The notes below the pieces were generated by a model, which was not told where the DNA came from, ran no database searches, and saw nothing but the letters and a program-made list of their open reading frames with translations. Positions 3,742-35,698 of a DNA stretch of 39,052 nt are shown here, one piece after another (the first letter of the stretch is position 1; the number at the start of each line of letters is the position of its first letter). This stretch comes from a virus, in IMG/VR virus record IMGVR_UViG_3300024520_000204, positions 1-39,052 of that record, one strand, 5' to 3'. The translations under genes were made by a program, and so were the position numbers.

Positions 3742-3780
3742 AAAAAAGAAAGGCCCCTCAATTTAGAGGGGCCTCTTTTA
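3742..3780. terminator. bidirectional intrinsic terminator
   Basis: AGGCCCCTC (3751-3759) pairs perfectly with GAGGGGCCT (3766-3774) around a six-base loop. CTTTTA follows on the plus strand and TTCTTTTTTA on the minus strand. It lies between the convergent ends of the plus-strand 90 aa gene and the late operon, and can stop transcription from both. Confidence 0.9.
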
Positions 3781-19184: not shown

Positions 19185-19203
19185 AGTTGCCCCCAACTAA
19201 AAG

Positions 19204-19224
19204 AGGGGAGGCCAGGCCTCCCCT
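19204..19224 (-). terminator. strong hairpin after the tail tube gene (attenuator)
   Basis: AGGGGAGG (19204-19211) pairs with CCTCCCCT (19217-19224) around CCAGG. On the minus strand CTTTTA follows, a weak T-run, so partial termination or 3'-end protection of the tube/sheath message is likely before the low-copy chaperone and tape-measure genes. Confidence 0.7.
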
Positions 19225-19231
19225 TTGTTTT

Positions 19232-28847: not shown

Positions 28848-29031
28848 TCTGCCCCCATCATGACCAGTCACAATTGTCACTTATTTGACTGAGTGCTGTC
28901 AATTTTTTGGATTGATTCATTGCAGTCTGCAATTTTTTAAAAAAAATTTATAAAAAAAAATTATTTTTTCTGCAGTCCACCACCAAGTGGATTAGGTGAC
29001 AAGTGTCTAAAATAGTTAAAAAAATGACCAA

Positions 29032-29055
29032 AAGCGGGGGCCGAGCGACCCGCTT
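29032..29055. other. candidate cos site (GC-rich dyad)
   Basis: AAGCGGG (29032-29038) and CCCGCTT (29049-29055) form perfect arms around a GC-rich centre, GGCCGAGCGA, within A/T-rich non-coding DNA just upstream of the terminase genes. In lambda-type phages the cohesive-end site is in this position, and its nicking site is likewise a GC-rich imperfect dyad. A transcription terminator is an alternative (TGTATTTTTA follows on plus). Confidence 0.4.
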
Positions 29056-29184
29056 GTGTATTTTTATAGGAAGGACCCAAATTTTTTGAGCGCCCTTGTG
29101 AAAATTTTTTAAGCTGTTATCATTCCAATAACTATGGATAGCGTCAAACCAATTGAGATCTGCAAAAAAGAAAATCCAATTGAA

Positions 29185-29229
29185 ATGATGCGGCCTGGGA
29201 TGGACATCAAATCCATTAGGCCGCATCAT
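29185..29229. repeat. 12-bp perfect inverted repeat with nested stem
   Basis: ATGATGCGGCCT (29185-29196) and AGGCCGCATCAT (29218-29229) are exact complements. Inside the loop, ATGGA and TCCAT can pair again around CATCAAA. The RNA of either strand would fold into one long hairpin. It lies between the cos candidate and a weak minus-strand promoter-like box (TATATT near 29250), so it may be in the leader of the terminase message. Confidence 0.75.
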
Positions 29230-29717
29230 AAAAATATTACCGCCCCTTAATATAATTTAATTAATGATCAAAGCAAAGCCTTTTTGTCTGCACCTTGAGC
29301 TTGGAATAATCATAGGACAGAGCACACTGATGGAATAGTGAGGGAAGTGACTGCCCTGGATGCACACACACAATGCAATCAGTCCATGGATATTAGAAAG
29401 ACCATTGTAGTAGTAGGCCAGGATGGCTGAGGGGGATGAGTCAGAGTGTCCATGTAAAAGGTCCCACCATAGGGGCCAACCTTTTGAAAGAGTTTTGTTG
29501 TCATAGGCCAGCAACTTAGGGACGGGAAATACCTAATCAATCCGATCACCGTCCAAAGCCCAATCAATTGGATCTCTCAAGATGTCTCTTGTGTGCCCTG
29601 TCTGGTAGGTAGGTGATGGCCTTGCTGTGCACAATTTTCTTTTTTTGATTTTTTTCTGTTGTCTGAAAGGCTTTTCAGTTAAGCTTTTTATAAGTTGTCT
29701 TTCAAGCGACCCAAAGC
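29230..29717. other. non-coding, structure-rich region
   Basis: No frame here has a convincing start, ribosome site or family. Its word use differs from the coding parts: few GATC and more irregular composition. Hairpins are visible: GGTCCC (29460-29465) with GGGGCC (29472-29477, loop ACCATA, one wobble), and GGACGG (29520-29525) with CCGTCC (29549-29554). A CA tract is at 29362-29372. The region ends at a plus-strand terminator, so a plus-strand structured RNA is possible. Confidence 0.5.
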
Positions 29718-29774
29718 ATCCCCTCCCCTTGTCCCGTATAGGCTAGAAAGCAAGAGAGTGAGGGGATTTTTTTT
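29718..29774 (+). terminator. plus-strand intrinsic terminator 1
   Basis: ATCCCCTC (29718-29725) is complementary to GAGGGGAT (29760-29767), followed by a run of eight T (29767-29774). The loop is long (34 bases). No plus-strand protein gene lies upstream for more than 1 kb, so it implies a non-coding transcript. Confidence 0.6.
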
Positions 29775-29778
29775 GATC

Positions 29779-29807
29779 TTGAAAATCTCTTTATTTTTAC
29801 TTATATT
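29779..29807 (+). promoter_or_regulatory. sigma70-type promoter of the candidate small RNA
   Basis: TTGAAA (29779-29784) and TATATT (29802-29807) are separated by 17 bases, 4 of 6 and 5 of 6 matches to consensus. Predicted transcription start is near 29814. It begins only five bases after terminator 1, which would insulate it from upstream reading. Confidence 0.6.
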
Positions 29808-29813
29808 CAAATT

Positions 29814-29878
29814 ACCACAATTTTATTTTAAGGGCCTTGAAGCACGTTGAAGGTTAAACTGCTCAAGGCTTTTTTTTT
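29814..29878 (+). ncRNA. candidate small RNA, about 65 nt
   Basis: Bounded by a good promoter on the left and an intrinsic terminator on the right. GCCTTGA (29834-29840) pairs with TCAAGGC (29863-29869), a bulge and three more pairs extend inward, and nine T follow (29870-29878). The first 20 bases are unpaired and A/U-rich, and the loop contains GTTGAAGGTTAAAC. No start codon with ribosome site is present. Layout (short leader, stem, U-run) is that of a regulatory small RNA; a target cannot be read by eye. Confidence 0.5.
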
Positions 29879-29898
29879 GGCATTGCCATCTCCCTTTT

Positions 29899-29924
29899 AA
29901 AAGGGGCCAGCTTTCACTGGCCCC
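29899..29924 (-). terminator. minus-strand terminator behind the tail Z-like gene
   Basis: GGGGCCAG and CTGGCCCC pair perfectly (29917-29924 with 29903-29910) around a six-base loop, followed on the minus strand by TTTTAAAAGGG. It ends minus-strand transcripts from the right side before the non-coding region. Confidence 0.8.
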
Positions 29925-30051
29925 AAAGTCCTCCAGTCTGACAGATAGGCTGATGAGATCCCATAGGCAGCCAGTCCTCAATCATCTCAATTGACCAATT
30001 GCCTGGAGTGCTTTCTTTTCTCCATGACCTTACTGATTGGGGACCAGTATC
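29914..30051 (-). pseudogene. HTH-like ORF fragment without a start codon
   Basis: A 45-codon open stretch reads DTGPQSVRSWRKESTPGNWS and continues IEMIEDWLPM to a TGA located in the loop of the terminator hairpin. It resembles the recognition helix and tail of small phage HTH regulators (V-R-S-W-R-K...P-G-N-W). A TGA stands immediately before the first codon and there is no ATG, GTG or TTG before residue 23. It may be a decayed regulator, or be translated only from an internal ATG as a 23 aa peptide. Confidence 0.35.
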
Positions 30052-30071
30052 TCAATTGGATTGAAATTATT

Positions 30072-30698
30072 TCAGAGTTTTTTGAGAGGTGCTGAGTTGA
30101 CCTTTCCAGTGAGCTTGTCCAACCTAAACTGCATCTCTCCTGGAAAGCGCTGGTCAAAAGTCCTTTGCATTTTTTTCTGGAGAGCCTTGATCATGTTGGG
30201 CCTAAAAACAATCTCAGTGATTGAGGGGCCTGCTTGGCGCTTGAGACCTTTGCCCCCTCTTTTAAAGACTTGCTTTGAGTGGACCTTGCCAATAAAAGCG
30301 CCTTTTAAAATCACTTTTTTCCCTGGCCTGATCTCTGCTTTGAGTTTTTTTCTTTTTTTGACCTTGATGCCCTTTTGCTCAATGATGTTTTTCGATCCAG
30401 AGACAAAAGAGAGCAATGGGATTGGCTTGCCAGCAAAAAGGATCTCTCCAAAGAGAGTGTCAAGATGACCACCTCTTGCTTTTTTGATGTGATGTGCTTT
30501 TTTGACATCAGTTGCTGAGAGACCACTTTTTTTGACTCTATATTGGCGCTTAATCAATTTGATTGAGAGCTTTCTGGTGGCAATGAGTGATCTGTTGATG
30601 GTACTTCTTGCCGCTTGAGTTGCGGCCTTGTTTTTTATATCATCAAGCCAGATCTCAAGGTCATTAAAATTGTGCTCTAAATTTATATCAAGTGCCAT
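30072..30698 (-). CDS. minor tail protein Z-like
   Basis: ATG 30698 gives a 208 aa product. Its pattern fits phage minor tail protein Z: A-A-R-S-T-I-N-R-S-L-I-A-T-R-K-L-S near 27-43, then the basic IKRQYRVKKSGLSATDVKKA. Next is GEILFAGKPIPLLSFVSG and ILKGAFIGKVHSKQVFKRGG, and the signature GPSITEIVFRPNM. It is separated from other tail genes by the non-coding region and the packaging genes, so may be expressed on its own. TATAAT lies exactly six bases before the ATG with no ribosome site, suggesting a leaderless mRNA. A longer frame from 30746 would start inside this promoter region. Confidence 0.78.
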   Translation of the reverse strand: MALDINLEHNFNDLEIWLDDIKNKAATQAARSTINRSLIATRKLSIKLIKRQYRVKKSGLSATDVKKAHHIKKARGGHLDTLFGEILFAGKPIPLLSFVSGSKNIIEQKGIKVKKRKKLKAEIRPGKKVILKGAFIGKVHSKQVFKRGGKGLKRQAGPSITEIVFRPNMIKALQKKMQRTFDQRFPGEMQFRLDKLTGKVNSAPLKKL

Positions 30699-30704
30699 AA
30701 AGGT

Positions 30705-30710
30705 ATTATA
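30705..30710 (-). promoter_or_regulatory. TATAAT box six bases before ATG (tail Z-like gene)
   Basis: Minus-strand TATAAT at 30710-30705, then ACCTTT, then ATG 30698. Transcription would start at or next to the A of the start codon. No Shine-Dalgarno sequence fits in the six bases. Confidence 0.55.
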
Positions 30711-30811
30711 AGGGGACAACAGAAACAAGACCAGCACTCCCTCCATGGATTGCTGATCTTTGGAGACAATAAATCAGTGGCACACGTTCCACTTGACTCA
30801 CTTATTTAATT

Positions 30812-31045
30812 TTAATCCTGGGACTGATACGATCCAATATAATTTTTCTTTCTTTGTCTTGCAGAGCGATAAACACCAAAGGCATTGTCAATCAACCTCA
30901 ATTGGATTGGGGAGAGATTGAGATCCTTAAAGCACTCCATGGATGGCTCAATCATCTCCACACCAATCATGTTGAAAATCTCATCAGGTTTTGCATTTTG
31001 CAGCCACCTCAATTTGAGAAAGTGACTGATCAGAGCTTTTGTCAT
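30812..31045 (-). CDS. hypothetical protein, 77 aa
   Basis: Unrecognised. ATG 31045 (MTKALISHFLKLRWLQN) lies six bases after TATAAT and is preferred over an in-frame start at 31069, which would lie in the promoter palindrome. The product is helical with a short NLSPIQLRLIDNAFGVYRSA segment and a basic Tyr-containing end. It diverges from the endolysin gene, whose TTG start is only 36 bases away, so both may be switched at one site. Confidence 0.6.
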   Translation of the reverse strand: MTKALISHFLKLRWLQNAKPDEIFNMIGVEMIEPSMECFKDLNLSPIQLRLIDNAFGVYRSARQRKKNYIGSYQSQD

Positions 31046-31046
31046 A

Positions 31047-31061
31047 GGTTTATTATAAACC
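31047..31061. promoter_or_regulatory. palindrome with TATAAT between divergent genes
   Basis: GGTTTATTATAAACC is a perfect 7-bp dyad around one base. The minus strand reads TATAAT (31057-31052) six bases before ATG 31045. The plus strand reads TATTAT (31051-31056), a possible -10 toward the endolysin. A dyad over two opposing -10 boxes could be an operator. Confidence 0.5.
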
Positions 31062-31080
31062 AAAAACAAAGGGGATCATT

Positions 31081-31761
31081 TTGGAGAATTTTTTAACGAG
31101 ATTGGTCAATTGGCTTGCTAACTGCATCAACTCACTCACTGCTAAAATTAATGCTTTTAATAGCTCTAAAAAGGCTGTCTCAGAGCCGCCAAAAAAGAAA
31201 GCCAAGCCAATCATGCCACTTGGATCAGATCCGAGATCAGAGCGCTATTTTGAGGCCCTCTGGAGATCTCTCAAGCCAAGGCAGTCCAATGGCCTGGCCT
31301 ATGTGTTGACCAGCATCAAAGGGAGGCGCAGTCAATATGAGGCAGTGAGCAGAGAGACTGGTGTTGATTGGGAGGTGATTGGATGTCTGCATCTCATGGA
31401 GGCTGCACTGGATGGATCAAGACAGATCCTCAATGGAGAGCCATGGGATCAAGTGACCCAATTAGTCCCAAAAGGATTAGGCCCATGGGAGTCCTGGACT
31501 GAGTCTGCAATTTTTGCAATTAAGAAAAAAGGACAGATTTTTTTTAATGCTGACATTCCAACGGTGCTTTTGGCTTTTGAGATATACAATGGCACTGGAT
31601 ATAAATCAAAAGGCATCCACTCACCTTATCTTTGGGCAGGCTCTCAGCATTACACCAAAGGAAAATACATCCAGGATGGTGTCTATGATCCAATGGCAGA
31701 AAGTCAGCAGATTGGTGTGGCAGTTATTTTAAAAGCTCTTGGATACGGTGCAAGCTCTTGA
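31081..31761 (+). CDS. endolysin, phage lysozyme-family muramidase
   Basis: The 226 aa product from TTG 31081 (after AAAGGGGATCATT) matches the COG5526-type phage lysozyme family. Y-F-E-A-L-W-R-S-L-K-P-R at about 56-67 precedes V-I-G-C-L-H-L-M-E107-A-A-L-D-G-S at about 99-113, with Glu107 the likely catalytic acid. N-G-E-P-W-D and G-P-W-E-S-W-T-E-S-A follow, then IPTVLLAFEIYNGTGYKSKG and HSPYLWAGSQHYTKGKYIQDGV. It should cut glycan strands of peptidoglycan. The N-terminal 45 residues are amphipathic and basic, of unclear use. Its 3' end overlaps the convergent peptidase gene by 38 bases, and it is far from the lysis-like genes at 7-8 kb. Confidence 0.85.
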   Translation: MENFLTRLVNWLANCINSLTAKINAFNSSKKAVSEPPKKKAKPIMPLGSDPRSERYFEALWRSLKPRQSNGLAYVLTSIKGRRSQYEAVSRETGVDWEVIGCLHLMEAALDGSRQILNGEPWDQVTQLVPKGLGPWESWTESAIFAIKKKGQIFFNADIPTVLLAFEIYNGTGYKSKGIHSPYLWAGSQHYTKGKYIQDGVYDPMAESQQIGVAVILKALGYGASS

Positions 31762-32071
31762 TCCATTTTTTATCAACACCAAAAGACTCAATGAGGAGAT
31801 TGCCAATGCACTCAGCAAGGCACTCCTCACTTTTGTCATCTAGCGAGTCACAAAGGCCGGCCCTATAAATAAAAGCATGTCCAAGCTCATGGGCAAGACA
31901 CCTCATTTTATAGTCATCATTGGTGATTGATTTTCTGATGCTGATGATAAAAGTCTCATGACAAAAAAGACCATCATTGAGATCATCCTGGACCATGTCA
32001 TCATCACTCACCTCAAAGACAACAACATCACGGCCCAAAATTGGGATCAGCAATCCATCCAGGTCAATCAT
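31724..32071 (-). CDS. ImmA/IrrE-like zinc metallopeptidase, 115 aa
   Basis: The HExxH zinc motif is clear: A-H61-E-L-G-H65-A-F near the middle, with a downstream acidic S-E-E-C-L-A-E-C helix that may supply the third ligand. This is the single-domain ImmA/IrrE pattern (peptidase M78-like). ImmA cleaves phage repressors, so a role in lysogeny or host-regulator control is possible; no repressor gene adjoins. The start overlaps the phosphoesterase stop by eight bases, and the 3' end lies antisense to the endolysin end. Confidence 0.75.
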   Translation of the reverse strand: MIDLDGLLIPILGRDVVVFEVSDDDMVQDDLNDGLFCHETFIISIRKSITNDDYKMRCLAHELGHAFIYRAGLCDSLDDKSEECLAECIGNLLIESFGVDKKWIKSLHRIQELLK

Positions 32072-33401
32072 CCATCATCTCCTTTGCAGTATAGACTCGA
32101 TCATCAATCACTGCCCAATCATCAAAAGTAAAATGCACTTTGGGGATGGACTCATGAGTCTTGATGTTGATTGTCACCTCTAAAAATCCAGTATTCCAAC
32201 CACTGGTCTCACCCAAATAGGATGCATCTTTGACATGCATCCCAGGAGTCTGAGTCCATGTCAGTTGCTTGGTGAGGTTAGTTGTTGGATCAATAAAAGC
32301 ATAAGAGTCAATCTTGCCAGTGTGGTGATGTCCATTTGATCCAGAGAGGGACCTGAGCCGCTTGTCTGGTATATGTGAAAAAATAAAAGTATTAAAATAG
32401 ACCCTATAGTTTTTTTTCGTTTCATTTTTAATGTCAGCCTTTGAGAAAGCGCCAAGGTCAAATTTTGAGGCCCAATTTATTTGGAACTCATCAAGACCAA
32501 AGATGTCTGCAAAAGAGATCCCCATCACATCAGACAATAGGACTCTCACATTGGGAGTGGCATCAGCAAGCAATCTCAAAAGTCTCAGCTCATGATTGCC
32601 GGCCAGGAGATCAATCTGAGCATCAGGGCACACCTCTCTCAGTGGCCTAAAGACTCTCTCTCTGACAAAAGCAAAGCGGCCCTTGATGTCCACCTCTCTC
32701 AAATCAATTGAGTATTTTCCAAACTCCAAAAGATCATAGATGTCACCATTGAGGACAATGACATCAGGCTGCTTGATCTTGCACTCTGCTATAAAAACAG
32801 AAAGCGAAAATTGGCAGCACTCTTTGTCATGCAGGTCACTCATGGCCATTATTTTTTTTATGTGATGCGGCCTCGATATTTTTTGATACTTATCCACATA
32901 GGGCAAGACCTCTCTGTCAAAAAAAGATCTGTAATGATCAACACTGGCCTCTTTTGCAATTGCTCTCTCAAGAGCTGCCTGTTGCCTGGAAAGCTCAAGA
33001 CCTGCCTGTCTCCTAAACTCTTGGAAGGTCCCAAAAAATTGCTCCCAGGTTGAGTCAGAGAGCTTGCCATTGTGTCGGTAAAAGTTGCGAGTGATGTGCT
33101 TGCCCCAATTAGATTTTTGGAGATCTCTCAAGTCATCAATGCAGTCATCAGCAGTGGCATTGGGATCAAAGCTTTTCTCATGCTCTGAGAGGAGTGCTCT
33201 TTGATTGGAGGTCAGACTTTTGACATAGGCAGCACCTGCCTCTTTTTTAAAATCTTTCCATGATCCAAAGTGTTTGGTGAGCTGCCCCCTGGTGGTGGCT
33301 GCATACTTCAAAAAGTCATCCCTCATGATTTTGCAATTGGGATCTTGTTTTGACTCTTTCAGTGAAACATAGGCACCAATGAGATCTTTCTTTGAGGTCA
33401 T
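32064..33401 (-). CDS. calcineurin-like phosphoesterase with two homing-endonuclease-type repeats
   Basis: The 445 aa product is a fusion. Residues about 5-57 (ending L-T-K-H-F-G-S-W-K-D-F-K-K-E-A-G) and about 85-135 (ending F-F-G-T-F-Q-E-F-R-R-Q-A-G-L) match the repeat found with HNH homing endonucleases, a DNA-binding unit. Residues 180-430 are a metallophosphoesterase: M-S-D189-L-H191, N-G-D220-I-Y-D, A-G-N269-H270-E and the G-H-H-H-T-G-K block near 357-363. It may be a nuclease or phosphatase directed to DNA. TATAAT lies six bases before ATG 33401, and a terminator lies upstream, so it has its own transcription unit with the ImmA-like gene. Confidence 0.8.
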   Translation of the reverse strand: MTSKKDLIGAYVSLKESKQDPNCKIMRDDFLKYAATTRGQLTKHFGSWKDFKKEAGAAYVKSLTSNQRALLSEHEKSFDPNATADDCIDDLRDLQKSNWGKHITRNFYRHNGKLSDSTWEQFFGTFQEFRRQAGLELSRQQAALERAIAKEASVDHYRSFFDREVLPYVDKYQKISRPHHIKKIMAMSDLHDKECCQFSLSVFIAECKIKQPDVIVLNGDIYDLLEFGKYSIDLREVDIKGRFAFVRERVFRPLREVCPDAQIDLLAGNHELRLLRLLADATPNVRVLLSDVMGISFADIFGLDEFQINWASKFDLGAFSKADIKNETKKNYRVYFNTFIFSHIPDKRLRSLSGSNGHHHTGKIDSYAFIDPTTNLTKQLTWTQTPGMHVKDASYLGETSGWNTGFLEVTINIKTHESIPKVHFTFDDWAVIDDRVYTAKEMMDD

Positions 33402-33407
33402 GAGTCA

Positions 33408-33413
33408 ATTATA
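33408..33413 (-). promoter_or_regulatory. TATAAT box six bases before ATG (phosphoesterase gene)
   Basis: Minus-strand TTGGTTTATAAT ends at 33408, then TGACTC, then ATG 33401. The 12 bases TTGGTTTATAAT are identical before the 77 aa gene at 31045. TTG also occurs six bases further upstream in both. No good -35 box at 17 bases. Confidence 0.6.
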
Positions 33414-33459: not shown

Positions 33460-33491
33460 TAGAAAAGAAAAGGGAGAGCAAAAGCTCTCCC
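33460..33491 (-). terminator. intrinsic terminator behind the PP-loop gene and 33 aa gene
   Basis: GGGAGAGC and GCTCTCCC (33472-33479 and 33484-33491) pair perfectly around a four-base loop. On the minus strand TTTTCTTTTCT follows. It closes the transcript of the PP-loop enzyme before the phosphoesterase promoter. Confidence 0.85.
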
Positions 33492-33539
33492 CTTAGTTGA
33501 CCCAATTACTTTGGAGGTGCTTGGATCAACTCTCACCAA

Positions 33540-35430: not shown

Positions 35431-35698
35431 CAAGATCACCAGGGGACAGAGTCACTGCTTGGACAATATGCAAGTAAGTCCGATAGGCAGAGAGAAAATC
35501 TTTGGTGGCCTGGCCGTGCAAGACAAAAGAGTCTGGCACTCCTGAGACATGGATCTCAATTGATGGACAATTTGACTTTTGTGCTCTGACTGCCAAGACA
35601 TTTTCAAAAGGGATCACGTCAAAGTCATGGTCATAGGCAATGGCCAGGATTGGCTCATCCTCTTTTTGCTTTGGCATTGTTTTTTTTTCTGTTGTCAT
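35423..35698 (-). CDS. hypothetical protein, 91 aa
   Basis: ATG 35698 overlaps the resolvase stop as ATGA. The product has a Lys/Glu-rich N-terminus, then DHDFDVIPFENVLAVRAQ and a beta section, ending in a helical GQATKDFLSAYRTYLHIVQ. No family recognised. Location between the resolvase and the membrane gene gives no clear role. Confidence 0.65.
   Translation of the reverse strand: MTTEKKTMPKQKEDEPILAIAYDHDFDVIPFENVLAVRAQKSNCPSIEIHVSGVPDSFVLHGQATKDFLSAYRTYLHIVQAVTLSPGDLDE

Follow-up and report, generated by a model that had tools for sequence, protein, structure and literature searches.

Three genes in the IMG/VR record of an uncultured phage carry the hexamer TATAAT exactly six bases before their ATG, raising the question of whether their transcripts begin on the start codon itself and are translated as leaderless messages. 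Leaderless translation initiation is a known process but, to our knowledge, has been little catalogued in phages. In the window (the whole 39,052-nt, or 39-kb, stretch analysed here) genes lie nearly all on the minus strand. We consider it likely that the three sites are σ70-type promoters in which a strong −10 element is all that remains, with RNA starting on or near the A of the start codon, and that the three genes are expressed from leaderless mRNAs. Sequence evidence makes this reading well supported for the genes starting at 33401 and 30698 and plausible for the one starting at 31045. The features concerned are as follows.

33469..33494, minus strand: strong intrinsic-terminator-like hairpin (11-pair stem, then a T-rich tail), ends the upstream unit
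33408..33413, minus strand: TATAAT, predicted −10 element, exact match, N6 to ATG; predicted transcription start at the A of the ATG at 33401
32064..33401, minus strand: HNH-repeat and calcineurin-like metallophosphoesterase, 445 aa, predicted leaderless (PF18780, PF00149, phrog_20266); no ribosome (SD) site
31724..32071, minus strand: 115-aa HELGH-containing protein, SD-led (AGGAG) (phrog_1233; weak match to phrog_87 metallo-protease)
31081..31761, plus strand: 226-aa lysis-enzyme-like protein, TTG start at 31081, SD AAAGGGG at 31068-31074
31047..31061, both strands: perfect odd palindrome GGTTTATAATAAACC (7+7, 15 bp), with −10 elements on both strands
31057-31052, minus strand, TATAAT, and 31051-31056, plus strand, TATTAT: −10 elements within the palindrome; predicted transcription starts at 31045 (minus) and 31063 (plus)
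30812..31045, minus strand: 77-aa orphan ORF with coding-like codon use, predicted leaderless (the weakest case)
30705..30710, minus strand: TATAAT, predicted −10 element of the tail-completion gene, exact match; TAGAAT at the orthologous positions in the relatives G001 and G458
30072..30698, minus strand: tail completion/Neck1-type protein, 208 aa, predicted leaderless (phrog_27), just ahead of the structural block

The TATAAT-N6-ATG sites occupy positions 33413-33399, 31057-31043 and 30710-30696, and no further copy exists in the window. At each of them the first T of TATAAT falls at −12, the spacing of leaderless genes. The earlier note's description of three exact matches holds. Dinucleotide shuffles yielded a mean of 0.09 copies and never reached the three observed. 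When 53 gene starts were shifted at random by 0-200 nt, at most two matches arose in 20,000 trials. Minus-strand ATGs number 946; the motif precedes just three of them, each a gene start read on the coding strand, and the remaining predicted gene starts in the window score at best 4/6 against TATAAT at N5-N7. The absence of a ribosome site, also claimed previously, was borne out at all three starts, whereas SD sites precede most other gene starts in the window. These are mostly GGAG, AGGAG or GGGG; the GGAG named in the note is indeed common, while its GGGGGC is rare. Inspection revealed no canonical −35 element or extended −10 (TGN) at the three sites, the window's list of promoters contains none there, and a search upstream of the genes returned no Rfam match.

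The N6 spacer before 33401 contains an in-frame TGA, making this ATG the first possible start; the HNH-repeat domain begins at the N-terminus, and the next methionine is 25 codons in, within that repeat. The start is thus well supported by sequence. In other phages the phosphoesterase has relatives that align from about residue 51 on and so provide no test of it. These relatives (36-43%) occur in unrelated Roseobacter, Bordetella and large uncultured phages, and the window protein joins the phosphoesterase to an N-terminal homing-endonuclease-associated HNH repeat. For the tail-completion gene, the mechanical ORF starts upstream at 30746. In a four-protein alignment, however, the first methionine of each of three homologues falls opposite the one at 30698, and this, together with in-frame stops just upstream in G001 and G458, rules out the longer start and leaves 30698 well supported. 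Gene finders relying on SD sites easily miss leaderless phage messages, and annotation would make this third gene longer than it should be by 16 codons. Downstream of it, between the tail-completion and terminase small-subunit genes (28880-30072), lies about 1.2 kb of low coding potential with two small ORFs of atypical codon use and, at 29520-30060, stops in all frames; the matching region exceeds 3 kb in syntenic relatives.

The three sites also lie where a new transcript has to begin, as had been proposed from the sequence. The strong hairpin precedes 33401, a weak terminator-like hairpin (30793-30776) precedes 30698, and 31045 diverges from a plus-strand gene, a transcription-unit context that fits leaderless promoters. 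Elsewhere in the window, two strong hairpins of nearly symmetrical form, each flanked by T-runs on either side (3749-3776 and 19202-19226), are possible bidirectional terminators. The support for leaderless reading at 33401 and 30698 comes from starts fixed independently, the lack of an SD site and a −10 box at the leaderless spacing.

Relatives sharing the structural gene order of the window extend the case for the tail-completion gene, and this comparison supplies the strongest of the new evidence. In G001 (IMGVR_UViG_3300033148_008077, 43.5 kb, TerL 57%) the orthologue is preceded by GATAGAATAGTCCT-ATG, that is TAGAAT-N6-ATG, with no SD site, an in-frame TAG just upstream of the ATG and a preceding non-coding gap of 297 nt. 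In G458 (IMGVR_UViG_3300022221_000014, 42.3 kb, TerL 62%) the sequence is TAGAATATCAC-ATG, giving TAGAAT-N5-ATG (CCTAGAATATCAC-ATG), again with no SD site, an in-frame TAA six codons upstream and a gap of 162 nt. Both genomes thus hold a near-perfect −10 box within one base of its position at 30698. Plus-strand ATGs with a box of at least 5/6 make up 0.9% in G001 (at N6) and 2.5% in G458 (at N5-7), which puts the joint chance at a few in ten thousand. A second box in G001, TATTAT, lies upstream of the first by 10 bp and is 16 nt from the ATG; a transcript driven by it could carry a short leader lacking an SD. G001 also contains TGATAGAAT, in contrast to the window sites with their lack of a TGN extension. 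Two more distant homologues, L042 and L049, have purine-rich SD-like sites (GAAGGGG and GAGAGA) before the tail-completion start. The −10-at-start arrangement at 30698 is therefore conserved in G001 and G458 and belongs to the window's own branch. Where the window has its −10 at the start, the tail-completion gene of L042 and L049 has a conserved leader some 100 nt long (L042:4800-5000 and L049:200-415; TCATGGACYGC ... GGGACGCCAA ... TTTTTACCGAA), which has no Rfam match. Separately, G458 has a further candidate leaderless gene at position 35624 (L134), a 72-aa ORF with an extended −10 at the leaderless distance from its start codon (TGATAAAAT-N6-ATG). For the genes at 33401 and 31045, no orthologues were found.

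The 31045 site is a different matter. Its −10 lies in the palindrome, whose two predicted transcription starts are 18 bp apart with reciprocal A-11/T-7 pairs, and 18 bp is the usual geometry of bidirectional promoters (PMC10268837). With a plus-strand start at A31063, the lysis-enzyme-like gene would have a leader of 18 nt in which AAAGGGG precedes its TTG at 31081; its product matches a Bradyrhizobium phage 'peptidoglycan-binding protein' at 35%. We estimate that chance alone would place about 2.7 palindromes of this kind in 39 kb. The presence of one is therefore no proof, and it is the location that makes it notable. We propose that this −10 probably fires both ways, toward an SD-led lysis-like gene outward and a leaderless 77-aa ORF inward; 31045/31063 would then be a compact test case of a promoter with a leaderless message in one direction and a leadered one in the other. 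The 77-aa ORF has a codon score of +0.30 bits/codon, and no homologues of its product were found. Among 48 genes, its predicted mRNA 5′ end has the most structure, and the leaderless claim is weaker here for that reason. The 5′ ends at 33401 and 30698 are fairly open; openness of the 5′ end is mixed support across the three genes. As a leaderless gene, 31045 thus appears less secure, given the orphan ORF, the structured 5′ end and a −10 that may mainly serve the divergent gene. The note's claim of leaderless mRNAs accordingly stands best for 33401 and for 30698, with its arrangement kept in two phages, and less well for 31045.

The sequence TTGNNNTTGGTTTATAAT is identical at 33401 and 31045, as reported, and these two sites share the 18-nt core TTGN3TTGGTTTATAAT, while a 23-nt stretch spanning the start codon and −10 is 83% alike between them. 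The note had extended this core to a promoter family. Six exact matches to TTGN3TTGGTTTATAAT-N6-ATG exist in IMG/VR, none at a gene start, the ATG opening just 1-20 codons in each, so a wide family was rejected. In G001 and G458, the core precedes neither 30698 orthologue. The core is local and at most represents a duplicated promoter.

Several other explanations have to be weighed against −10-only leaderless promoters. That AT-rich matches were simply chosen after the fact is very hard to credit: motif and spacing were indeed picked after the sequence had been read, but for leaderless transcription an N6 spacing was to be expected in advance, the shuffling and random-placement results speak against it, and the arrangement recurs in two independent genomes, G001 and G458. 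A more substantial rival, confined to 31045, assigns the palindrome mainly to the plus-strand lysis gene, as its promoter or operator, and treats the N6 spacing to the 77-aa ORF as coincidental. The perfect 7+7 symmetry, a plus-strand −10 giving a leader with a correctly spaced SD, and the orphan ORF with its structured 5′ end all favor this account; the coding-like codon use of the ORF and the resemblance of the 23-nt stretch to 33401 count against it, and we regard it as a tentative possibility, short of even chances. It is unlikely, in our judgment, that TTGN3TTGGTTTATAAT is instead a binding site for a phage repressor or activator laid over the core promoter, with the two units forming a regulon. 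Such a site would suit the core common to 33401 and 31045, the palindrome at the latter and the absence of a −35 at all sites, which suggests help from an activator, but the core is missing at 30698 and before its orthologues, the IMG/VR matches are not gene starts, and 33401 is not palindromic.

Equally doubtful is the proposal that the −10 boxes are real but that transcription starts slightly off the ATG, or that the main transcripts come from upstream, producing short or ordinary SD-less leaders and making N6 incidental. Start-site choice varies by 1-3 nt, and the alternative TATTAT in G001 and the N5 box in G458 fit such a scheme and also count against strict leaderless initiation. However, the spacing is exactly N6 at all three window sites and N5-N6 in the two relatives, no SD site is available for any leader to use, and in-frame stops lie directly upstream. 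Other points against the −10-only explanation are the lack of a −35 or extended −10 at the window sites, while E. coli RpoD requires a −35 at such promoters (PMC12340547), the SD-like sites of L042 and L049, and the structured 5′ end at 31045.

On balance we favor −10-only promoters with leaderless mRNAs. Most likely a host σ70-type polymerase recognizes the −10 and starts on the A of the ATG or no more than about one base away from it. The phosphoesterase and tail-completion mRNAs would then lack a leader and enter translation by the 70S/5′-AUG route in place of SD pairing, while later genes in both units use ordinary SD sites, as does the 115-aa HELGH gene, second in the phosphoesterase unit and overlapping the 3′ end of the first. 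The start sites, polymerase and translation route are what we infer from these arrangements. A search for the host by comparing TerL with genome contigs found nothing close, and a tail-completion profile had no match in about 440 genomes. A broader and more speculative reading, to which we give little weight, is that a lineage of uncultured phages keeps a −10-only leaderless promoter for the tail-completion gene that heads its structural block, with a palindromic leaderless/SD-led bidirectional switch beside the lysis-like gene; if so, leaderless units could be favored as ribosomes change late in infection. Retention of the −10 at the start in syntenic phages shows that, in uncultured viruses, units of this kind can be recognized by comparative genomics alone.

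Promoters of this type with leaderless mRNAs are already known in kind. Leaderless genes occur in many phyla, they are marked in published work by a TANNNT some 12 bp ahead of the start, and leaderless initiation was first discovered in lambda (Zheng et al., 2011; PMC3160421). In Deinococcus leaderless genes a −10 without a −35 suffices (PMC12340547). The window sites resemble these TA-led bacterial genes, including the Deinococcus '-10-motif' genes, in a −10 hexamer that starts 12 nt before the start codon with neither SD nor −35. They differ in belonging to a phage whose other genes are SD-led and in having a full TATAAT box. Like the leaderless lambda cI transcript, the predicted messages would be phage mRNAs starting at AUG from a host-polymerase promoter; unlike cI, they would encode structural, phosphoesterase and orphan products and not a repressor. 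Finally, 31045/31063 shares with bidirectional bacterial promoters (Warman et al., 2021; PMC10268837) a symmetrical −10 and predicted divergent starts 18 bp apart, but here one direction would be leaderless and the symmetry reaches a 15-bp perfect palindrome.
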